Assembly: GCA_023078685.1 (NCBI GenBank)
Contig: JALGAS010000006.1
Span: forward strand, 3,348,001 to 3,412,000
From: Neopestalotiopsis rosae
Lineage: Eukaryota > Ascomycota > Sordariomycetes > Amphisphaeriales > Sporocadaceae
Length of the DNA stretch: 64,000 nt
Reading direction: 5' to 3'
Shown here: piece after piece, positions 16,837 to 30,979 of the stretch
Numbering within the stretch: the stretch's first letter is position 1
How the letters are laid out: each line of letters begins with the position of its first letter
Position numbers and translations under genes: made by a program
The notes under the pieces: model-generated
What the model was told of the DNA's origin: nothing
Seen by the model: only the letters and a program-made list of their open reading frames with translations
Database searches by the model: none

Positions 16837-19800
16837 ATGGCTCAAATAGCAACAGCTTACGGACGCCGGCTCGTACCTCGAGTCCTGGACGAGTTGGCCG
16901 ATACGGACCCCAAGAGAGTCTATGCCGCCATACCCAAATCAGCTGATGTGAAAGACGGGTTTCACGATGTGACTGTGGCAGATCTTTCGCGCTGTGTTGA
17001 TTTCATGGCCAGTTGGCTTGATGAAAGGTTTGGTCGAAGTGAAAGCTTTGAGACAATCACTTACATTGGACTCTCTGATCTTCGCGGACCTACAACTCTT
17101 CTTGGCTCCATCAAAGTTGGATACAAAGTAGGCAAAAAAAAAAAACCCCCCCTCAAAGGAAAAAGAAAACTGTCAATAGCATTCGCTGATGATGATAGCT
17201 CCTGGTTCCTTCACCGAGAAACCCGCCCTCGGTTACCTTACATCTGATGGAGCGCACTGGCAGCACCAAAGTGTTGTATGCTGCAGAGCTTGCTCCCTTG
17301 ATCAAGCCCCTTCAGGATCTGGCACCGACATTCGTTTTTGATGCTGTGCCTTCATTCCAAACCATGCTCGATAGCCATCCAGTCAGATATCCCTACGAAA
17401 AGAGTTTTGAGCAAGCTAGGGATGAACCAATTGTGGTCTTGCATTCTTCTGGATCAACTGGTAGGACTGCCGTCTACTGGTCAATCGATTGCGACTGACA
17501 ACTTTCAGGGTTGCCCAAGCCAATCACCATCACCCATGGTTCTATCGGCGCACATGACAATGATCATAACCTCCCAGTTCCAGATGGACGAGAGAGATCA
17601 GACTCAACAGTGTTCACTCTCGATGGAAATGATCGGCGCCTATATGTCATATTGCCATTTTTCCATGTACGTTTTGTTGTGCTATTCTCACAATAGAGAC
17701 CAATGCTAACAATGAACAGCTCGGAGGCTTCGTCTTCTTTATGAGTATGTTCGATGACGAACTTGCATCTTTTCTTGTTGTGACTAATAATGTTAGATCA
17801 TGCCCTCCTCAACAACTTGACGCTTGTGCTCGGACCAGCGCATGTGGCTCCGGATGCAGGGCTGCTCACGCAGATTGCGCAACAACAGAAGCTCAGAGGA
17901 ATCATGGTTGTGCCTGCTATTCTGGAACAGCTCTTGCATGATCCGAAAGGCCTGGACTTGCTGAAGAGCTTCGAGTTCGTGGCCTGTGCTGGAGCTCCAC
18001 TGCCGGGCCCAGTCGGTGATCAGGTTGCCAAAGCTGTCAAGATGTTCATCTTTATCGGATCCACCGAGACCTTCCCTCTCCCTGAGCTGAAGAAGGGTCC
18101 CGAGGATTGGCAGTACCATGAATTCAACCCAAACCTCAAGCACGAAATGCGGCCCTACGGCGACGACACGTTTGAATTAGTCATTCTTGCCGATGAGACC
18201 ACAAAGGATTCGTGCCCTGTCTACCACAATATTCCCGGCGAAAGTCCTTTCTTCACAAAGGATCTATTTACACGGCATCCGACGAAGCCAGATCTATTCA
18301 AGTATTACGGTCGTCGGGACGACATTTTGGTATTCGCCAATGGAGAGAAAGTCAATCCGATTCCCTTGGAGCAGCATGTTCAAGGAGACCCTCTGCTCAA
18401 AGGGGTTCTTCTCGTTGGCAATAAACGTACTCAGTCAGCTCTTCTTGTGGAGCCTCGTGATGCCCTAGATGAAGCTGGGCGCAAGAAGTTGATTGAATCA
18501 CTTCGTCCGCGTATCGAAGAAGCCAACAAGCTCGTCCCCGGTCAGGGCCGTGTTGGTAAAGGCATGGTTTTCTGTGCCGTATCCGATAAGCCGTTTGCCA
18601 GGACTGGCAAAGGAACCACCGTCCGCAAATTGACTGAGACTGCTTACGAGCAGGAGATCGAGCATTTGTATTCTACCTCGTCGCTCGAGCAGAAATTCGT
18701 CTCGGTGGATTTGAGTGGAACAAACGTGACCAAGACTGTCTACGAAAGATCCAAAATCATTGGCTTCTTGCGACAAATCTTTGCGTCTTCCTTTGCTGCA
18801 GCATTGTCTTTCGGAGAAGATGAGGATTTCTTCGCCCACGGGCTCGATTCCATACAGACACTTGAGATCACGGGCAACCTAAAGCACAACCTGGCGAAGC
18901 TGACTTCCTCCTCCATCGATTGGATATCACCGCGCACAATCTTTCAAAACTCAACACTTGTAGCTCTCTCGGATGTACTGTTAGACTTTCTGAACAACGG
19001 TACCGTCCCCGAGACCAACTCAGAGACCGCCCGCGCGCTAGCTGTGAGCGAGACAGTGGCACGGTATGTGGAGAAGCTTCCTCAAAGACCAACATCTGCC
19101 ATTGATCCCAAGACTGTGCAAGGCTCAAGTGTGGCCATAATCGGCTCAACTGGTTATGTAGGCTCGTATCTTCTGTCGACCTTGATGAAGAACCCCGAAA
19201 TATCTCGAGTTTACTGCCTCAACCGAAACGATGATGCACAAGTAAGACAGGAGAAGTCCCTGAGCGGGTTCGGTCTTGACTATGAGGCACTTTCGAGCAA
19301 GGTTACTTTTCTCAAGGTCGAGCTTGGTGCACCGCGCCTCGGCCTTGGTCAAGACCAATGGGAGCTGATTGCAAACACCATCGATTCCATTGTTTACAAC
19401 TCCTGGCGTCTTGATTTTGAGATCGGAATTCGCTCCTTCGAGCCATTCTTGCAAGCCACGAGAGATCTGGTCGAATTGTCTACTTCTAGTAGCAACAGGA
19501 TCCGAATCACCTTCGTCAGCTCAACGTCTTCGGTAGAGAACATGGCTCTCACATCCGTAGTTCCTGAAAAGCCAGTGGCGGACCCCCTAGCTGCAATGAA
19601 CACTGGCTACGGCCAGTCCAAATTGGCTGCCGAACAGATACTGGTCGCAGCAAACCGCAAGACCGGCACACCTGTTTCCATCGTTCGCATAGGGCAAGTT
19701 GGCGGCTCATCCCGTCCTGACGCCAAGACCTGGGCCGATCAACCCTGGATCTCCGCTATCATTCAGACGTCGAGAACACTTGGGTGCTTTCCCAGCCCCG

Positions 19801-20186
19801 TGGCTCCAATAGATTGGGTACCGGTCGATAGTGTTGCTACAATCTTGCAAGCCGTCGCCCTTCGCGCCGCTGAGGACGAGCCACAAGTCTGCAATATCGC
19901 CTCTGAACCGCAGCCATGGAGCTTGCTGGTTGACTTGATTCGCCAGTCTACAGACATCAAGGAAGTTTCATCGCTGCCGGAGTGGGTTGACAGGCTCCGA
20001 AAAATCTCCAACCCCGACCTGACACGATTGCCTGCTGTTCGACTGTTGGGATTCTACGAGCTACTGGGCAGTGGAACAGACTCTCTCAAGTTTGCCACTG
20101 AGCACGCACAAGCGGTCTCCGGGGTGGAGCTTAAGCCTCTAAAGAAAGAATTGCTAGAATCTTGGTTGAAATCTTGGGGAGTCTGA
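16837..20186 (+). CDS. NRPS-like adenylate-forming reductase (A-T-R)
   Basis: Five exons (16837-17127, 17199-17460, 17509-17666, 17720-17744, 17797-20186) give 1041 residues; exon 4 is only 25 nt. Domain order: AMP-binding adenylation domain (about 20-560) with HSSGSTGLPKP (P-loop A3), FIGSTE (A5) and YYGRRDDILVFANGEKVNP (A8); a carrier domain with phosphopantetheine serine in GLDSIQ (Ser597); and a C-terminal thioester reductase of extended SDR type with Rossmann GSTGYVGS (about 693-700) and catalytic YGQSK (about 850). Such enzymes activate a carboxylic acid as AMP ester, load it on the carrier and release it as aldehyde or alcohol using NAD(P)H. There is no condensation domain. It ends 76 bp before a convergent UstYa gene, so it may or may not belong to that cluster. 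The 71-nt first intron contains an A12C7 run. Acid substrate unknown. Confidence 0.93.
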
Positions 20187-20261: not shown

Positions 20262-21276
20262 CTATTCTCCACCATACTTGTTCTTTACTTCTGCCGGATC
20301 CGGGTGGATCTTGCTCAAATCAGGGTGTCTAGCGTCGCTGAGATCCCACATTCCTCTGTCGTCGGCCAGCTCGAGCAGCGCATCGAAGTCCTTGCACGTG
20401 TGCATCTGTCCCCAGGCTGCCGACGCCGGCCAAGCTCCCGTCTCGCCCTCGAGCGAAGTGTCGGCGTTGCAGAGGATGGCCTGGCGAAGGTATTCAATGC
20501 AGTGGGTAGTGTGTTCAAGCTGTGGCCTGGTGAACTCGGCAAACTCTTCGTATGATGTACCCATTCGTTGTGTGATAATAGACTATTATTTTCAGTCAGT
20601 ACTCACATTTCTTCAACCTGTTCTAATTTCAGTCACGTAAAAGTTCCACGTACCAGGCAGTGCAATTGGTGATACACGCTGAGAATGTAACCCTCGAAGT
20701 GGTCGCCTTCCTCTAGTATGCCGTCCAGATGGTACGCTGGAGTGGCGTATTCGAAGTCATCACCGGGCCGTGGATCAGCCGTGATGTAGCCCCTGCTCTT
20801 TGGGTAAAGCGCTTGCCAGTTCTCGTGCAGCTCGCGCTTATGCGTGGCGTTCCACATCATCTCGTGGTCGACGTAGACGAGGTCTGGGCCGAAGCCTGCA
20901 ACATTGCCAAACTTGACGACTTTCTCTGGTACTACGTCGAGGTTTCAGTCAGTTTGTAGTTCACTAACATATCTCCATCTGCATGAAAGAACTTACATGC
21001 TGGCCCGAATCGGGGAAGCCGATCGGATTTGGACTGTTTTGTCCGGGCAGAGTGATACGAGGCAATAATGATCAACAGAACAAAAATAAGCGCTCCCATC
21101 AATGCCTCAATCATTGCACGGGCGCTCATGTTACTCAGACGCTGTCGAATACTGCCTGAGCTCTTGTGCTTGATCTTGGCCTGTTCCGAGATGAAACCGA
21201 GTTCCTCCGAAGAGTCGAGGGAACTCGAGCCTTCAGTTGAGTCTCGGACTTTCTCATAGACATGCTCCATATTCAT
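20262..21276 (-). CDS. UstYa-family (DUF3328) oxidase, classical subtype
   Basis: Three exons (21276-20997, 20931-20654, 20582-20262) join to 292 residues. Family role: UstYa-type proteins are membrane-anchored oxidases that cyclise or otherwise oxidise ribosomal peptides in dikaritin (ustiloxin-type) pathways. Seen: a Ser/Glu-rich cytosolic N-terminus, one transmembrane helix (about 54-74), PEKVVKFGN-type beta segment, and the two diagnostic HxxHC motifs, HQLHC (181-185) and HTTHC (210-214, followed by IEYLRQAILC), with the typical about 25-residue spacing. Convergent with the NRPS-like gene and divergent from the next oxidase gene across 1.3 kb. First ATG taken at 21276; the second at 21270 is equally possible. 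Its presence beside a Kex2-repeat precursor supports a RiPP role. Confidence 0.9.
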
Positions 21277-22581
21277 TGTATGTGATGAATGTGAATAACA
21301 GAAGTGAAGTCACAATTCCGCGCACATGGGAATTTTTGGAAAAAATCGACGAGGGGAATGGAAAGTATTAGGAGCGATTGATCAATGTCGCATACTACCA
21401 GTTCTGTTGAGATAAGCAGGGCATCTTGTGCTTTACAAGGAATATCTGCCAAAGATTCAGGCAAGACTGGAATAAGTCTTAGACGACCTATGTCCGCGTT
21501 GCCAAGAGCTTCATAGAGTATACACCGACCAGGGTAGGCCTATGTACGCCGTTATTCGCTTATGGCTCGCCGCACCGTGTACAAGATGCAGCACTAGCAG
21601 GGTACCCAAATCCCCTGGCAAACGCTTATCCGTGCCGAACCAGCCCGCTGGATTGGCCCCTAATTCTGATGTTATACTGCGCACCAACTCAGCTTAGGTC
21701 GGCCACTAATGTGAGGTACTTCAACTCCTTCTCAACCCTGGCCTGCTGGCATTTAGATCCTACCCAAATATCTCGAAAATGCATGGAAATGTGCCGCGGG
21801 CCTACAGAAACGAGGCTTTAAGTTGTATGGAATATGGTCATTACCTATCAAAGACCTTGAAATCAGTCAACTGACCCGCCTCTCGATCCTGCAAACGCAT
21901 TCGCAAGCAACATGCTCGTCCAATAGCTAGATCACAAACCCACCAGGCTGGCACGCTAAGGGTGGCTGGCAAGCTGGTTTCCGTTGCCTATCGGACACCC
22001 CAGTATTCTGCCATTGATAGGCTATAGACTACAGCTATAGACTGCTGGGTATCAGAATAATTCTTGGTGACAAGAACTCCATTGTGGCTGCATATACTGT
22101 TGCATTGAAAGGAACTGTACCCGGTCACCACTCGCCTCAATAAGTGGAAAAAATCAAGAACTATCTCGTTCGTGTCCGGCGATCATGACTCCCGGATCTT
22201 CCGAACAGGTCAATAATCCGCAATAATCAGTCAGGTACTGCAGTGCCGTAGACGGTAAGGTTACCCTGTAAAGTTGAGGGGATCATGGAGTCTGCTGGAT
22301 AGGTCCCTTGTCAGTCCTACCACGAACAAGTCTGGCATTTTTCAGGGTCAACGACGGTTCCCTCCTGTCCGCGCAAAGCTGTATGCTATGCCTCATTGAA
22401 GTTCGCATTCCATTCTCTACCCCAAATTGAGGCGCCCGAGTACAGTGCTGTTCGGCGTGGCCAACAGGAACTATTGTTGCAAGGCATCGACTGAGCGACC
22501 ATCATTTAACGAAAGATTCTCAGGGTAAGATCCACAACAAAAGTCTACAAGTTCCATCATCACCTACTAATTTGAACACAG
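21277..22581. other. Divergent promoter region between two oxidase genes
   Basis: 1.3 kb containing the promoters of the UstYa gene (minus) and the second oxidase gene (plus). No gene seen. A regulator binding site might be shared, but I found no convincing repeated motif by eye. Confidence 0.4.
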
Positions 22582-23283
22582 ATGGACACCTCACACAAGA
22601 CCTCCATGGAAGAAGTTGACTTCAACGTCAATGACTCCCTGCTTCAGCAAAGGCCCATTGAAGCCGCACCGAAACGCCACCAAAAGCAAAACCGCGTCCT
22701 CATAACTGCCTTGGCCCTTGTTACAATCATTGTGGCTCTCACAGCTTTCATATTCTGGTCGATCGTGTCGTCCTCAAAATCATGTCCAAATACTTTGCAT
22801 GCGACAAAAGACTCCCAAGTCCTACATTGCGGCAGTAGCCCCTCAGAGGCGCGCTCGCTGGGCTGCAAACTACAAACATGGAGCTACAGCTGGGTGCCGG
22901 AGCCCTGCTTTGACGCCGATCTGAACGAGGAGTTCATTGCCATCCATATCAAGGACGACCTCCCGTACTATGCCGACCGTAACGGTACCAAAATCGTCGA
23001 CTTTGACGCTGTATATGAGGGCAACTTGGAGCTCTTGTACACGGTTTGGGGATCGCATTACTGGCACTGCGCCTTCATGATGAGGAAGTTCTTTCGGCGG
23101 CGGGCGGCCTTTACGGAATCGACTTGGGAGTACGAACATGTTGCGCATTGTCAGATGTGGCTGGCGAATCCGTTTCGCTTTGATTTCAAAAGGGTCACTA
23201 CCAAGGCTGGTCTGGTCTTTTCGACTTGTGTTCCTGGAGAGTTCGAGGGATTCACGCTTGGGAACTTTGAGACAATCGAATAG
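22582..23283 (+). CDS. UstYa-like oxidase, CG/GC subtype (paralogue 1)
   Basis: Single exon, 233 residues. Seen: cytosolic basic N-terminus, one transmembrane helix (about 39-61), a lumenal segment with CGSSPSEARSLGC (Cys83, Cys95) and a third cysteine at 109 (PEPCFD), acidic ELNEEF-like stretch (DADLNEEF), and two HxxHC motifs: HYWHC (159-163) and HVAHC (186-190). The paired HxxHC motifs put it with UstY-type oxidases; the cysteine-rich lumenal head is shared with the two paralogues at 25867-26629 and 27528-28315 but not with the protein at 20262-21276. Convergent with the peptide precursor gene, 473 bp apart. An intronless gene among intron-bearing paralogues. Likely acts in the secretory pathway on the precursor peptide; the reaction is inferred from family only. 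Confidence 0.8.
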   Translation: MDTSHKTSMEEVDFNVNDSLLQQRPIEAAPKRHQKQNRVLITALALVTIIVALTAFIFWSIVSSSKSCPNTLHATKDSQVLHCGSSPSEARSLGCKLQTWSYSWVPEPCFDADLNEEFIAIHIKDDLPYYADRNGTKIVDFDAVYEGNLELLYTVWGSHYWHCAFMMRKFFRRRAAFTESTWEYEHVAHCQMWLANPFRFDFKRVTTKAGLVFSTCVPGEFEGFTLGNFETIE

Positions 23284-23756
23284 CTTAGAAATTGAATCGA
23301 AATCCGTATGCCACTGGCGAAGTAAACAAAGATTCATCACCAAAGCAATTGAAAAGTCGACTCTAACATGGGATTAACCCACATAGATCATAAAAATTGG
23401 TTATCATTTTTGACTTGATCATTATTATGGTGAATCAAGAATAATCTTCACTACTGCTTTGGGATAGTCGGCTCAAGCTTGATCCTTAGGTTCACTTTAT
23501 TATATCAACTAGGATTCTACGAGTATCACGCATTGAGAGCGATATATTTCTTCAAGGAGACATAGGTTGATTCATTGTTACAATTAAAGAGCTAGCCCTT
23601 ATTGGTGTCTACCTAGACTAATTCAACATTCCAGGCTCCTTCTTGATGCTCCGTCGAACAGCTACAGTGTTCAGCATATCATCCATGAGGCCTATATTAT
23701 ATAAGGTATCAGTACTCGTAGCTTCATCAATTGACAATGAAACATACCTCAAGAGC

Positions 23757-24050
23757 TCAAGACTCAATTGTGATGTCCTCCTCGATCACTGGGTACGCGG
23801 CAGTGGAATCACGCTTGGATTCAATAGTGATATCCTCTTCAATGACGGGATAAGCAGCAGTTGAGTCGGGACTGCGCTTGGATTCAATGGTGATGTCCTC
23901 TTCAATGACAGGGTAGGCAGCAGTCGAGTCCGGGCTGCGCTTCGACTCAATCGTAATGTCTTCCTCGATGACGGGATATGCAGCGGTGGAGTCACGCTTG
24001 GACTCGATGGTGATGTCCTCTTCGATGACGGGGTACGCCGCAGTTGAGTC
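23757..24050 (-). repeat. Five tandem core-peptide repeats (57-63 bp units)
   Basis: Units on the minus strand: 24050-23994, 23993-23937, 23936-23874, 23873-23811 and 23810-23760 (then TGA). Unit lengths are 57, 57, 63, 63 and 51 nt. All five encode the same 17 residues. Third positions vary widely: units 1 and 2 differ at 12 of 19 codons, all synonymous. Units 3 and 4 share the extra Ser-Pro codons, suggesting they arose by a more recent duplication. Confidence 0.95.
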
Positions 24051-24122
24051 TCTGGCGCGCACAATGGGGCCAGCGGATGCGAGGCCGGCGACCATGGCAG
24101 CGAGGAACAGGGAGGTCTTCAT
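23757..24122 (-). CDS. Kex2-processed repeat precursor peptide (dikaritin-type RiPP precursor)
   Basis: Single exon, 121 residues. Order: signal peptide MKTSLFLAAMVAGLASA (cleavage likely before Gly18), a short spacer GPIVRAR, then five repeats each containing DSTAAYPVIEEDITIES. Repeats 1-4 end in Lys-Arg, the Kex2 protease site; repeat 5 ends at the stop codon without KR. Repeats 3 and 4 have an extra N-terminal Ser-Pro. This architecture (signal peptide, identical short cores, dibasic separators, next to UstYa genes) is that of fungal dikaritin precursors. The core holds one Tyr, followed by Pro-Val-Ile, a plausible site for an oxidative ether crosslink as in known dikaritins, and an acidic tail. 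Predicted products after Kex2 and carboxypeptidase trimming are 17-mers or shorter cyclic peptides. Alternative: an uncyclised pheromone-like secreted peptide. No database check was possible. Confidence 0.88.
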   Translation of the reverse strand: MKTSLFLAAMVAGLASAGPIVRARDSTAAYPVIEEDITIESKRDSTAAYPVIEEDITIESKRSPDSTAAYPVIEEDITIESKRSPDSTAAYPVIEEDITIESKRDSTAAYPVIEEDITIES

Positions 24123-25866
24123 GATGATTTACTTTGGTAGAACTTAACAGGAGGTAGACTGGGTCGAATGATCTATGACCAAGTTCGAAGTAGGAGAGGA
24201 GGACGCGGGAGAAGTGGTTTTCATGTATCGATTCGGGTCGTTGTATTGAGACGACTCGGTCTCCCAATCATTTTGCCGCTACCATAAGACATTGAAGCGA
24301 ATCTGCTTGACTCTCGTGAAAGGAGGATTCGTTGTCACCACTGGGCCCATAGCACCCTTGTCGTTACGCATTTCGAGTTTTTCCAGACCTTGGATTCACG
24401 ATAATGCCAGGATGGAGATGATCCAAAGTACTATACACCATTAATCAAGAACACAATGGATAAACGCCACATGCAAGGTATACTCGATCCCTCGAAGAAA
24501 AGATACACCCCAGGTTGGATATTGATCTGACACAAAATGGCGAATTATGCGCCCCGTCTTTACATGATCTCAACTAGGGTCATAGAGTCTGACGTGGACA
24601 GTCGTCCGTCTGGCACTAACACACTAACCTAATGTACGAGCCTTTTTAGGTTGCCGTGGTTCCGGGTAGAGTGATCACTATCGGATGTTGACGCATTTGC
24701 CGCAATATTCGTTGTGATGGTACCGTCGATCGCATGCGCGTGAGCAGTGAATATCAGGCAAATCTGTTGATAGCCCCCAAAATTCATCACACTTCAGGAT
24801 CATGTCAGAATCCTCCACGCGAAGCCAGTACGGCGTAGCAATATGCGAAGTGCTCCAAGAGAAACTGACCGAATCACGGGATCGCTCTGTAAGAGTTATA
24901 GTTGCTTATCACCAATAGTAACGGACGTTGCTTCCGATTGGTCCTCCATTAAATCTACTATACTGGATCAATAAGCCCAAAACCGGTCCACCGCAAGTTC
25001 CAGGAATCCTTAAATGAACCAGATCCTTCGGGTCCAACCCAAGGGCATGGTTATCGGTAACCAATCACCCGGGAGGAGACGTAACGTGATTGGGTTCCTG
25101 CTTGGTAGGATTTGGCAGGATGCTGCAGCCTGTCAGCGAACCCATGTCTACTGTACGCCAACCTCATTGACACGCGATTACGAATTTCTAGGGCTGAGCA
25201 AGGCATTGTGTTGTGCTCTTCTTGTTCCGATTAATAGCACGTGCTCATACCATCCTGCAGCTCTTGCATGGATCAGATAGGCCAGACTTAAGCCTGACTC
25301 GACTGTGCCTAGTCCTCCTTCTCATGTAAGCGAATGCCAACATTCATCAACACCTACATAGGACCGTAAGCACGGATTTCCGTGTTTCCAAAGCCTGGCC
25401 CTCGCTTCGATCTGACCAATTACATGCGTCGTAACAGCATCGTCATAGCCATTCAGGTTCGAATCGACTGGTGAGTGACCTCGGACCGGGAGAAGGATTG
25501 TATTGCTTGGGAAAAAAAAGCGAAAGGTCATCATCACGGTTTTGAGATAGGTGAAATGACCCCACACTTTTATTACCTACTTGAATCAGTATAATGGATT
25601 CCACCTTATTATGGAGTAGCCAAGACAATTGGTGCAGAAAACAAGCTCTTCGCTAGACTACGGGCTTACGCCAAACGGCCAAGGAGTTAGATCCGAGCCT
25701 GTCATACCAAGAATTCTATACTTCGTCCTAGCTTGGCGATTTGTTGTCTCGGCCATTCTGGAACACCTTTCAACACTACTCAGGTAAGATGATCCGCAAT
25801 TTCTGAAGGACGGTAGAATGCGTCCACGTCCAAGTAAACAGAGATACCTGACGGCCAAGGTCAGCA
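24123..25866. other. Intergenic, precursor promoter and oxidase 3' side
   Basis: 1.7 kb holding the promoter of the precursor (next to 24123) and the region downstream of the third oxidase gene. I looked for another signal-peptide/KR-repeat frame and saw none. No gene supported. Confidence 0.45.
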
Positions 25867-26629
25867 TCACTCATGGTTGGTGTCGAACACGACCCCAGAC
25901 ACGGTGCCGGTACCATATGTCGCCTTGCGGGCCCAGACCATGCCGCAGTGCTTGATGTGCTCTTCCGTGTCGGATCGGGGGTCCAGCGTCTTGCCGTTGA
26001 GTCGAAAGCGGTGCTCCTTGCGCCAGTAGAACAGGCAGTGGACCTCGTGCCAGCTGTAGTCCATGTGGAAGCGCTCGTTTGGGGTGTCTCCCAGCCATTG
26101 GATCTCTTCGACGGAGATTGGAATGGTGTGGTGAGTGTCCCTGTAGTATAGCCACTGCAAACGAACAATTAGTTACCAAACAAGTCAAGTTTGCTCTTGA
26201 TTGACTTACTGTGCCATTCGGACCGTCTCCTGATCGATCAAACTCAGCTGTCAGTTCGTCGTCTCGACAATGGTCTGGTAGCCAGGCAGCTGCCAGTGAG
26301 TCGTATTTGCATCCCATGGCGATTGCTTCGGTGGAAGTTGTCCCACAGTAGCAACCGCGACGGTCTGGCCCGAAAAGAATGCTGACTTGACTGAATACAT
26401 GAAGAGCAATGTTGATGAAGCCCCACAAGCAGAGGAAAGCGATCAGTGCGAACTTGAGAATTCCCAACCATGTCTTAGATCTGGATCGCAATGGCACATT
26501 GTGCACAGCGCCGTCGTATTCATCTTGGTCGTTGAGCTCAGTTGAGCCATTCTCAATTCTGCGTGAGACTCAGCATGCTGGAATCAAGTAGATGGTTGGG
26601 GTATAATACTTTCTGTAGTCCCCAAGCAT
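25867..26629 (-). CDS. UstYa-like oxidase, CG/GC subtype (paralogue 2)
   Basis: Three exons: a 20-nt first exon (26629-26610), 26558-26210 and 26154-25867, giving 218 residues. The tiny first exon is needed because the frame upstream of the second exon reaches a stop without an ATG; joining restores MLGDYRKIENGS. Seen: transmembrane helix (about 36-60), lumenal head with CYCGTTSTEAIAMGC and PDHC (Cys76, 78, 90, 104), DELTAEF, and HxxHC motifs HEVHC (159-163, followed by LFYWRKEHR) and HIKHC (189-193). The head and the C-LFYWRK context match paralogue 3 closely. Divergent from paralogue 3 across an 898-bp shared promoter, which suggests co-expression. Predicted peptide-modifying oxidase in the secretory membrane; reaction inferred. 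Confidence 0.85.
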
Positions 26630-27527
26630 ATTGCCTTCACGATGTGTGGGGTTTGAAATCAATACCAAGAGATTCGAGGTTGGAGGAGTGACCTGTGCTC
26701 TGTTCTGATTTTGGAAAGACTTGGCAAAGTTACAAGTCTTGTATGTGAAGGAGGTCAATGTTGAGGAATTGAACGCAAAGTCCTCAGCGAGAGGCAAAGG
26801 GAGGCGGGCATTTGAGAATCGCCAACCACATGGCTGCTCCATAACTTTGGACGAACAGTCCAGTATCGTACTCGGTCCATCATATCTCTGGGGAACACAT
26901 GCTTGCGGAAGAGTCGGATCATGTCCTCTGATTCACACCAAGCGCTCTCTGGCGACAATGAAAGCGGGGCAGTCTTCGATTGAGGATTTGGCTGTGCCAT
27001 TTTGGGACATATCGAGGACTTCACCGTTATGCTATATTTTCTAGGATACAAACCGGGGGCAGATAACCGGTTTTGTACACAGTGTTTGTCGTCACTGTGG
27101 CGCAATCGCCCCGACTCCATACATGATACCATGTGTAGTTCATCTTGGTCTGACACAACACACCCTACGCGCCTACGAATTTCCAGATGAATGGAAGTAG
27201 TTGGTTGGAAACCAGTCCAAGATGCTTGCAAGGCATAATGACGAAGGATCGCAACGTTGCATCCGATGCGATACTTCAACCATGAACTTTGGAGGCTTGA
27301 ACATTGGACTTGGGTCGAAGGCGAGGTAAGCAGAAGCTAGAGATAGTACCTTTGAAGGTAGTGATCTCCAGTCTTGTCTTGACCAAATTTACGAGGTCAA
27401 TGATTCACCCGATTTCTCAAGTCTTGTTGATCTCCCAGACTTCTCAGCTTGACCAATATTCTCGCAGTCTCAATTTCTCCAGACTTTGTGGGCAGAACTC
27501 AATATCATCTCAGCCTCTGATTCCAGA
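26630..27527. promoter_or_regulatory. Bidirectional promoter of two oxidase genes
   Basis: 898 bp separating divergent start codons at 26629 (minus) and 27528 (plus). The part near the plus-strand gene is a CT-rich leader with TTGACCAA occurring twice (near 27378 and 27449). No gene seen. Co-regulation is inferred from layout only. Confidence 0.4.
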
Positions 27528-28315
27528 ATGGCGTCTTGGTCAAAATACTCTGAGCTCAAAGACGAGCACTCTGATGAGCGAGAGTTTGACAATGGCAGCC
27601 AGGAAGAGCTTCTTACCCCCAAGCCTAAGAGAAGGCGAACTTTCAATCTCAAGACCACTCTTGTATTTCTTGGTGGAGTTGCTGTTGGTGTGACTATCTT
27701 AGTTGCGACCATGCCTTCCTCGCTGTTTGCAAAGAAACTGCCAACGCCTTCGCGAGACGGCTATTATGTCACCAAGATCGTTGATGGAGCTGTCATCGAG
27801 GGTACTCAGTGCGGTAAGTGGTAGATCTCCACCTACAATTTGAGGAAGCAAGAAGCTAACATCACTCAAAAGGCGACTCGTGGCAAGAGGCCAAAGCTCT
27901 CGGTTGTATCTACGACGTGATTGCATCACGCTGGTACGCTCCCGAGTGCTTTGATCAAGAGTCGTTTGACGCCATGAAGCAGGAGCCCGGCACGAACTAC
28001 ACATGGTACTCAGACAAGGAGCACACTATGCAGGTGCCCACCGAGATTGGCGAGCGCGGAGAGTTTGAGCTCCTCTATCCCCTCAAGAACTTCCACAAGA
28101 TTCACTGCCTCTACCTCTGGCGCAAGATGCACCACGCCCTCCTCAACAATCTGCCCTTGGACGATGACCTCATGGAGGAAGATCATACTATACACTGTAC
28201 CAAGAACCTCCTGACCTGGCCCGATCCAACCGTTAAGGAGGTCGCTTCCATCGCTCATGCAGGACGACCATTTTGCCGCCGGAACCCTCTGGGAGTAATG
28301 CCCTATATCAAATAG
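27528..28315 (+). CDS. UstYa-like oxidase, CG/GC subtype (paralogue 3)
   Basis: Two exons (27528-27813 and 27873-28315), 242 residues. Seen: charged N-terminus, basic cluster KPKRRR before one transmembrane helix (about 42-62), lumenal head with QCGDSWQEAKALGC and PECFD (Cys95, 107, 121), then HKIHC (170-174, followed by LYLWRKMHH) and HTIHC (200-204). The intron sits inside the CG codon pair. Together with the genes at 22582 and 25867 it forms a three-member paralogous set around the precursor. Family knowledge: in dikaritin pathways two or more UstY proteins act together in cyclisation. A longer upstream frame exists but this ATG gives the normal topology. Confidence 0.87.
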
Positions 28316-29294
28316 ACGAGATTCTCGGCGTCTGGTTCTGAAGGCAATTTACTTCTTAGATAATACCAGCCTGCTCTCCTTATGAACAGTCGTGGTATCC
28401 AATAGTAGGAGGGATCGAGTCTGGGCTTTGGTTCTTAGATGTCAATTGTGCAATTCCTTCAAAAGCACTCACTAGTCTACTTAGCTGAACAGATTAAAAA
28501 AAAAAAGAGTTTTATTAATATTGCTCGGATTCGTCTATCAACCTACAGCTTGGGTTTTTTTCCGCTGAGGTGCATGATGAGAGGCAGTCGAGATTCACGG
28601 GCAGTGGCCAGGTACACATCGGAGACCTACGATATACCGAAGTTGAATGGTGCCACCCAATTGCATTCAGCCAGAATCCTACAACCCATTGATACATCAA
28701 TTCTCTGTTCGTGATTGTAATGCAAAATTGCTATTCGCCAAGTCCCATGACTGCCCCCAATATGACAGGCAAGGTCTCTGTTGGCGGTTTGCTCGGACCG
28801 AGACGGCCTATTTTGAGCGCACAGCCTATAGACGTTCGTATTATTGTACTATGCGTCATGCAGCAATGCCTGCTCTGCAGCAGTATCCGGTAGCATGGAG
28901 GTGGAAAACGGGGTGGAATATAGTGGATTCCAGCGATAAGCCAGCCCCTGCGTGATCCTTCTAACGTTAAGCGACGGTCGCTAGCTCCATGACAAAGTAG
29001 CGTCCATGGCGTACCAGACAGGCCTACAGCGAGCTGTGTACCAGACATGCCTCATCAGCGTCGCTTCAAGTCCGACTATCCTGTGCCTCGTACCTGCATG
29101 TAGGATGCAAGTTCTGATATTTATCGGAATGCCTTGTAACGCTGGATATGGGGTCCCAACGAAGTCCCCTCACCCGTTATCTCTCCCGTCCGCTCTAATT
29201 TAGCGAGTCGCTACGGGAGCTGTGTAGCGACCTGAAGCTACAGGCTCATCTTTTCCAACTTGGAGTCCAAGCAGTCTGCTCTTCCAGGCGCGAG
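28316..29294. other. Intergenic, no gene seen
   Basis: About 1 kb between the last oxidase gene and the transporter gene in the same direction. Contains an A-rich run near 28497. No supported gene. Confidence 0.45.
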
Positions 29295-30979
29295 ATGGAC
29301 GCAATGAATCGACACGACCGTTGGTATGACCCTATCCTTTCGACCATTGGGCTAGGAGGGCAAGTGGAATTTTCTTTCTTTCTGTCCTCTTCCTAAATTA
29401 TGTCGAGAACTATCGAGCATCTGACCGTCATTGAATAGAACACAAGTCGTGTTTTCGCTGTTCGCGGGCCAGGCCGTAGTAAGTTTATTCTGGGAGTCTT
29501 CTCTCACAAGGAATCCATAATGAACCCGTTATTATCCAGCTGCATCTCAAAACCTTTGGCCTGAACCCTTTGGAGATCGCGATCACACTACTCTTCGGCC
29601 CAATATGCGGTGCCGTCTTCCCTCCGTATTTTGGCTCCTGGAGCGACCGCTGCCACTCATCGTGGGGTAGACGGCGGCCGTTCATCATCTGGGGCACCGC
29701 AGCCATGAGTCTTGCTATGCTATCGCTGGCTTGGGCAGACTCTATCACCGGGGCTCTACTGCCGTCCACCACAGCGCCCGAGGTCGCCAGGACGGTTCTG
29801 GTGCTTCTATCCATGTTCTTTACGTTGGCCGTCTTTGTTGCCGTGCAGGCGGTTCAGGTCGGCCTCCGCGCGCTGCTCACCGATGACTCTACGGCGAATA
29901 CGTGGGCCAGTCGCCATATAACCTTCTCGGGATTTCTGGCCTATTTTGCAGCATATCTGGATCCTTTGAAAATAGGCGACAGCAATACCGGTAGCACTGT
30001 TTTCGCCCGCACTAGCGTTTTTACGACGATATACTTGACCACTACAATTCTGATCACTTGTCTGTATGCTCTCGATCCGGAGTTCAAGACACTAGACAAC
30101 CCGAGAAAACAGCGTGTCGCGAATACCAGGTTGTTACGACGTGTCTTACTTGGATCCTCCAGCCAAATCAGGACCATATATCTGGTCCAGTTCTTTTCAT
30201 GGCTCGGATGGTTTCCTCTACTGTTTTATACAGTGCCGTAAGTTGCACGATTAATATCCTCAACTGTCATGGAAAAAATGACTGACCTACGTGGTTTAGA
30301 TATTTGAACAGTTTGAGTAAGTATCTCTTTTTTTTTCGAATGAGCCACAGCATGCCCTGATACGTATAATTTAGATAAAATGCGGGAGCAGGCTGATGGG
30401 AATCTGGGCGCACTCACGCCTCTTCTGTACTCTACGGTCTCAATATTCGTCACATTTTGGTGGACCAGCCAGTCATCCGATGATGGCGCCTCCCTTAGAA
30501 TCAGTGATGATCTGGCGCTGACCGACAGACACATTTGGATTGGATCAAATTGCATCTTTGGGGGTTCGATGCTCGGGACCTTTTTCGTCACGTCTTCCTT
30601 GGGCAATGTACTGCTATTCAGCATGGTAGGTATTAGCTGGGCAGTCTCGGCTCGTACGCCCTACTCTCTACTTGGCGAAGAGTTGTCGCGCAAATCATCA
30701 CCCTGGAATGACGACGAAGCGTCCGATCACCAGGGCCTGATTTATGGGCTGAATAATCTGGCTATCTGTCTTCCACAGATACTGATAATGGTTTTAATGG
30801 GATTGGCATGGCTACTCGTTCCGACTAGTGACAATAATACCATTTCTGGTGTGGTGTGGTTCCTCCGGCTGGGTGGCCTAAGTGCTTTCGCTGCGGCTTA
30901 CTTTGCGACGAAACTGAACAAACGGCTTGTCACTGGCGAAAAGGATTTCGCCCTTTCGACTCTAGAAAATATTGAATAA
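29295..30979 (+). CDS. SLC45/sucrose-type (GPH-like) MFS transporter
   Basis: Five exons (29295-29359, 29439-29478, 29540-30237, 30300-30316, 30375-30979) give 474 residues; one exon is 17 nt. The first intron starts with GCAAGT, a GC-AG intron supported by exact frame continuity into GLGGTQVVFSLFAGQAV. Seen: 12 hydrophobic segments, GSWSDRCHSSWGRRRPF between helices 2 and 3, QFFSWLGWFPLLFYTV, WAVSARTPYSLLGEEL and GLIYGLNNLAICLPQ, all hallmarks of the sucrose/maltose proton symporter group. Most relatives import glucosides. Located 1 kb downstream of the oxidase set in the same direction, it could serve the peptide cluster or be an unrelated sugar carrier; sequence alone favours a sugar substrate. 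Confidence 0.87.

Follow-up and report, generated by a model that had tools for sequence, protein, structure and literature searches.

Dikaritin-type fungal peptides, a kind of ribosomally synthesized and post-translationally modified peptide (RiPP) of the UstYa/Kex2 class, come from multi-core precursors encoded beside DUF3328/UstYa genes. One such system, asperipin-2a, is encoded by four genes (aprA, aprY, aprT and aprR; PMC6514808), and an S41 peptidase and a methyltransferase are listed for ustiloxin/phomopsin-type clusters (PMC12048977, PMC6514808). A catalogue of Kex2-processed repeat proteins (KEPs), taken as having at least three tandem repeats of at least eight residues each between KR, KK, RK or RR, counted DUF3328 genes in the vicinity of 1758 of 7878 KEPs, with a mean of 1.7 per KEP (PMC7329392). 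RiPP clusters have also been predicted in Neopestalotiopsis rosae, as a review states in general terms (PMC12891159). Here we describe a locus in a stretch of 64,000 nucleotides of the N. rosae genome (53.8 Mb, 17 contigs; assembly GCA_023078685.1, contig JALGAS010000006.1, positions 3,348,001 to 3,412,000), hereafter the window. It comprises a repeat precursor, four genes (A to D) for proteins with paired HxxHC motifs and a transporter gene, and very probably constitutes a dikaritin-type RiPP cluster whose product would be cross-linked within the octapeptide YPVIEEDI.

The precursor begins with MKTSLFLAAMVAGLASA, which resembles a signal peptide when judged by eye, and continues into multiple cores of the dikaritin kind, namely five 17-residue repeats with KR between them as in a KEP. 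The spacers read, in order, KR, KRSP, KRSP and KR, and the last core runs up to the stop codon. Any two copies differ in their DNA at 6 to 13 of 51 positions. Every one of the 17 codons is variable among the copies, always synonymously and with no amino acid change, where 36 of the 153 possible single changes of the first copy would be synonymous and 117 would alter an amino acid. The array thus did not arise by recent duplication and is not neutral sequence, and since every codon varies only synonymously the repeat peptide is under strong purifying selection. A script that searches for repeats at dibasic sites made a single call in the window, the precursor, and none on 20 mononucleotide-shuffled windows. 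A degenerate DNA pattern for YPVIEED occurs five times in the searched genome, each time inside the precursor gene.

Four relatives of the precursor (P0001, P0002, P0003 and P0049) emerged when some 5.8 billion clustered proteins were searched twice, the last of them from the second search, which scored the best 8000 candidates by shared words. YPVIEEDI is unchanged in 16 of 16 repeats across the five precursors, and so is a DS that starts five residues upstream of it; the three residues preceding the Tyr and the tail of the repeat vary. Because the octapeptide is invariant and its flanks are variable, a ring inside YPVIEEDI is more likely than one spanning the 17-mer, and the comparison points to a product made from YPVIEEDI with variable flanks rather than from the whole repeat. 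A defined target or function is suggested by the preservation of the octapeptide, letter for letter, in precursors from no fewer than four further sequence sources. The relatives are all sourced from jgi or lgn. As none carries an NCBI or nr source, the precursor seems, among proteins of 0.55 to 1.75 times its length, to be unannotated in the Neopestalotiopsis protein sets that supplied the relatives of B and D.

The initial annotation had placed four genes with paired HxxHC motifs around the precursor, and such pairs are indeed found in A (HQLHC/HTTHC), B (HYWHC/HVAHC), C (HEVHC/HIKHC) and D (HKIHC/HTIHC). Together these genes hold 8 of the 12 HxxHC motifs present in the six frames of the window, where 30 mononucleotide shuffles contain 3.2 on average and 7 at most. 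Gene A matches PF11807 with 98.3 bits (E 7.8e-28) and gene D with 26.7 bits, 1.7 above the cut-off of 25, so that by these scores DUF3328/UstYa genes lie beside the precursor as in dikaritin clusters; all three exons of A were also recovered in a separate analysis. In a MAFFT alignment B and C are 26% and 31% identical to D, and hhalign relates the B family to the D family at 99% probability (3.6e-18). Compared with the classic UstYa profile, both motifs are aligned for the D family (probability 57%, P 1e-4) and for the B family (probability 34%, P 4e-4). Nine columns are invariant in an alignment of 45 proteins, A3. In D numbering, four (H173, C174, H200 and C204) fall within the HxxHC motifs and the other five (G96, A102, C107, W116 and C121) lie upstream of them. 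PF11807 is matched at E values of 0.1 or lower by 20 of the 45 members, the best at 6.1e-6. From these comparisons B, C and D likely form a divergent branch of the UstYa family. Counterparts in other fungi are G7054_g11200 of N. clavispora for B (96.1% identity), BJ166DRAFT_529259 of Pestalotiopsis sp. NC0098 for C (89.6%) and E8E14_003848 of Neopestalotiopsis sp. 37M for D (98.8%).

Gene A has no match at E up to 1 among the sequences of the PDB. The single PDB match of profile A3, 8qag_A (E 0.024, profile positions 29-93), was taken as chance because no stretch of it is significant alone and the alignment lies ahead of the HxxHC region. Two D-type relatives, P0031 and P0033, have lost the first His of the first motif (DYIHC, TYTHC) and the second His of the other (HTFYC, HTFFC), and may be inactive or altered.

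Table 1. Features of the precursor locus and its left neighbour (window positions).
Feature	Position	Strand	Description
NRPS-like (nonribosomal peptide synthetase-like) adenylation-carrier-reductase gene, 3' part	17784..20186	+	PF23562, PF00550, PF07993
Gene A, classic UstYa family	20262..21276	-	292 aa; exons 21276-20997, 20931-20654, 20582-20262
Gene B, divergent paired-HxxHC protein	22582..23283	+	233 aa, single exon
Precursor	23757..24122 (incl. stop codon)	-	121 aa, one exon; five copies of DSTAAYPVIEEDITIES at 24050-24000, 23993-23943, 23930-23880, 23867-23817, 23810-23760
Gene C, divergent paired-HxxHC protein	25867..26629	-	218 aa; exons 26629-26610, 26558-26210, 26154-25867
Gene D, divergent UstYa-like protein	27528..28315	+	242 aa; exons 27528-27813, 27873-28315
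MFS (major facilitator superfamily) transporter	29295..30979	+	474 aa; exons 29295-29359, 29439-29478, 29540-30237, 30300-30316, 30375-30979

The gene order is A(-), B(+), precursor(-), C(-), D(+) and transporter(+). Models of A, C, D and the transporter were assembled from splice sites and are open once spliced. The transporter predicted at the outset is borne out by a five-exon MFS gene with one GC-AG intron, which matches PF13347 with 33.5 bits (cut-off 27). An extent of less than 11 kb likewise holds, with the stop codons of gene A at 20262 and of the transporter at 30979 as its limits. The cluster is real and intact. On its left it directly adjoins the NRPS-like gene, which spans about 16.8-20.19 kb (+) of the window; on its right follow a DUF1993 gene, frames with a fungal rhodopsin domain, a PIG-V gene and a proteasome-activator gene. 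A shared promoter motif was considered and rejected: five 8-mers occur in 4 of 6 upstream regions (shuffle mean 0.09), and this excess is not evidence because C and D have overlapping upstream regions, as do A and B.

Linkage of precursor and enzymes is probably conserved in other fungi. The precursor relative P0001 and the D-type protein P0013 have the same longest contig value (5484), as do the precursor relative P0003 and the B-type protein P0026 (3252). In Echria macrotheca the D-type protein QBC47DRAFT_357814 and the B-type protein QBC47DRAFT_357812 have equal longest contigs, and a D-type and B-type pair in Mollisia scopiformis does so too; Echria belongs to a different subclass, and Mollisia to a different class, than Neopestalotiopsis. 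With this probable linkage, the class proposed in the initial annotation, a Kex2-repeat precursor with UstYa-family enzymes, is well supported.

Several observations weigh against such an assignment. Gene B reaches 20.1 bits against PF11807, 4.9 under the cut-off, and gene C matches no Pfam family at E values of 1 or below; the profile support for a link of the B and D families to classic UstYa is modest, and a precomputed PF11807 annotation is present in only 2 of the 45 database relatives. The co-location in other fungi was judged from equal longest-contig values and locus numbers rather than from contig sequence, and no precursor from Echria or Mollisia was seen among the search matches, the contigs themselves lying outside the search. 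Of the 63 tyrosinase (PF00264) matches in the genome none falls in the window, and the one closest to it (C14:3432711) lies about 54 kb past the transporter; S41 peptidase (PF03572) has 4 in the genome and none in the window; and for Methyltransf_25 (PF13649), the only methyltransferase family searched genome-wide, none of the 50 candidates scored, out of 119, falls in the window. The first core is preceded by IVRAR, not KR. Thus the earlier description of five identical 17-residue cores separated by KR stands for the cores and must be amended for the separation, at the two KRSP spacers and at IVRAR before the first core. UstYa-type/DUF3328 genes also occur in non-RiPP clusters (PMC12048977).

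In one alternative, which we regard as possible and advance tentatively, the cluster would represent a separate product family that extends over Sordariomycetes and Leotiomycetes. Three divergent paired-HxxHC members and one classic UstYa enzyme would act on YPVIEEDI and introduce several oxidative cross-links or desaturations in an undescribed pattern, and the precursors would have been overlooked because gene annotation misses them. The divergent subfamily carries an upstream module, CG...EA...GC...W...C. An unannotated precursor would also escape the KEP catalogue, because detection there used annotated proteins and a hidden Markov model threshold of 1e-5 (PMC7329392); B and C would go uncounted because of their scores relative to that threshold.

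Linear, unmodified secreted peptides that act as signals, with the adjoining UstYa-type genes acting elsewhere, are unlikely. Such an outcome would resemble the 78% of the 7878 KEPs that have no DUF3328 gene nearby, a group that includes nearly all annotated pheromone precursors (PMC7329392), whereas the precursor described here is flanked by four HxxHC genes, and homologues of precursor and enzymes recur with equal longest contigs. Moreover, the invariant segment contains Tyr, as do 65.6% of DUF3328-linked repeats compared with 38.2% of the others (PMC7329392). It is quite improbable that the locus consists of two adjacent units, with the UstYa-type genes serving the NRPS-like reductase and the precursor being incidental. 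For the NRPS-like gene and gene A, the gap between stop codons is only 75 bases, and DUF3328 enzymes, which are not exclusive to RiPPs, participate in some nonribosomal-peptide and polyketide pathways (PMC12048977); yet the precursor is located between B and C and not at an edge, and elsewhere D-type and B-type homologues share longest-contig values with relatives of the precursor. A silent or decaying RiPP cluster is scarcely credible, as the four enzyme genes, the transporter and the precursor are all open with plausible splice sites and the repeats show strong purifying selection.

The dikaritin-type assignment retains a high probability, and a biosynthetic route can be proposed for it. The putative signal peptide would take the precursor into the secretory pathway. 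In line with what is generally known of Kex2, cleavage would occur after KR, followed by trimming of the basic residues and, where present, removal of SP, to yield five 17-mers. By analogy with described systems, the classic enzyme A and up to three of the divergent proteins B, C and D, oxidases of a family with a predicted N-terminal hydrophobic segment, would then cross-link YPVIEEDI oxidatively, most likely through the Tyr side chain and the beta carbon of Val or Ile. The DST flank and the tail residues may constitute a recognition sequence that is trimmed later, and the product would presumably be exported by the MFS transporter.

The YPVIEEDI cluster is one of a set in this genome, as the repeat script picked out at least six more precursors with repeats, or frames resembling them, near UstYa genes; the script covered 3-4 kb loci (L001-L037) and nine 8-9 kb stretches, part of the 28 PF11807 neighbourhoods. 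These neighbourhoods, which include the present one, comprise 78 matches, often several exons per gene. Outside the window 18 B/C/D-like matches were collected by merging two listings by hand. Of these, 12 have a PF11807 match no more than 15 kb away and represent 7 of 12 neighbourhoods, although such zones make up 1.8% of the genome (binomial 4e-10, with neighbourhoods that are not independent and a possible contribution of paralogue duplication to the clustering). The transporter has paralogues at 8 sites beyond the window, and by hand count 4 of these sites have a PF11807 match at a distance of 15 kb or less (binomial 6e-6); that of the closest paralogue (C17:587210, 68%) does not. Two B/C/D-like pairs on C1 have equal scores on opposite strands, G000:C1:2747708(-)/2768744(+) and C1:2706942(-)/2771414(+), which suggests that a segment around UstYa genes was duplicated in inverted orientation.

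Among the further frames, L001 3294-3482(+), by the UstYa match G000:C14:3876973, has repeats of the DEDAIQEYSKR type with 5 DAIQE copies and is truncated where the locus ends. L007 203-637(-), near the UstYa matches G000:C10:5907567-5910804, has cores of the WAWTKWEDAA type with 4 WAWTK copies, KR sites and a signal-like start. The frame L040 7613-8029(+), identical to L041 613-1029(+), contains seven to eight AETDSQDSDYTIYK(K)R repeats at G000:C12:4748613, in a neighbourhood with UstYa matches, B/C/D-like genes and a transporter paralogue. L042 360-797(+), at G000:C12:2360360, alternates SIDARACVSSTEEDGTVVKR and CAIPWTKNYGDYDEKR for three rounds within a 23-kb stretch that has 15 UstYa matches. 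Near UstYa matches at G000:C3:122-140 kb, L044 396-1298(-) has EDLKGMFTTSHDVEAR repeats with mostly AR rather than KR, and L045 4615-4839(+) has NEEAVDGTQIAEGWKR repeats. In L040/L041 and L042 the repeats are also spanned by a second reading frame, which was not counted as a precursor, nor was a frame with YEGYA repeats in L022/L027, which is protein-like and exceeds 300 residues. The script gave no call for L038, L039, L043 and L046.

The strings AYPVIEEDITIE, YPVIEEDITIES, DSTAAYPVIEED, YPVIEED and PVIEEDI have no occurrence in the open-access full texts searched, split strings and supplementary catalogues lying outside the search, so that no published product with a YPVIEEDI core came to light there. 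In the literature searched for Neopestalotiopsis or Pestalotiopsis together with RiPP, UstYa or DUF3328, there is no description of a YPVIEEDI cluster. That the cluster is undescribed, as first proposed, thus agrees with the open-access full texts; published repeat-precursor catalogues in supplements were not covered. The cluster offers a specific, testable peptide with an exact core for a family of mostly unexplored chemistry, and ties a divergent HxxHC subfamily, largely missed by Pfam, to repeat-peptide clusters. The calculated [M+H]+ values are 1852.8698 for the 17-mer, 1850.8542 with 2H fewer and 1848.8385 with 4H fewer; 977.4826, 975.4669 and 973.4513, respectively, for YPVIEEDI; and 864.3985 for YPVIEED, or 862.3829 with 2H fewer. 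If the product is bioactive, it would be relevant to the biology of the pestalotioid fungi, which include plant pathogens.

The nearest described system is best taken to be asperipin-2a, which shares with the present locus the repeat precursor, UstYa-family enzyme and transporter and the lack of a tyrosinase; with its four genes, it shows that a cluster can do without tyrosinase (PMC6514808). It differs in its core (FYYTGY), its one UstY gene compared with four HxxHC genes, and its isoflavone-reductase-like reductase, for which only the adjoining NRPS-like reductase is a candidate here. Ustiloxin B likewise combines a signal peptide, putative here, and KR-bounded tandem repeats with more than one UstYa-family gene (two) and a core that starts with Tyr followed by hydrophobic residues including Ile, with acidic residues beside the core (PMC7329392, PMC6514808); its core is YAIG, and the window has no match to tyrosinase, S41 peptidase or, among the 50 of 119 candidates scored, Methyltransf_25. 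Phomopsin resembles the locus in the several DUF3328 genes (five) that accompany a repeat precursor (PMC7329392), and differs in having a tyrosinase and a zinc-finger regulator, none of the latter being present among the 49 selected proteins and frames scanned with Pfam, with no genome-wide search for one. The epichloecyclins (GigA; PMC9233826) similarly derive from a multi-core precursor with probable Kex2 processing and a proposed Tyr/Ile cross-link, but are cyclic nonapeptides with an N-terminal Ile and an internal Tyr, whereas here Tyr precedes Val-Ile. The cluster, as a probable dikaritin-type one, belongs to an already known kind, in which its YPVIEEDI core, its fourfold HxxHC set and its seemingly unannotated precursor stand out.

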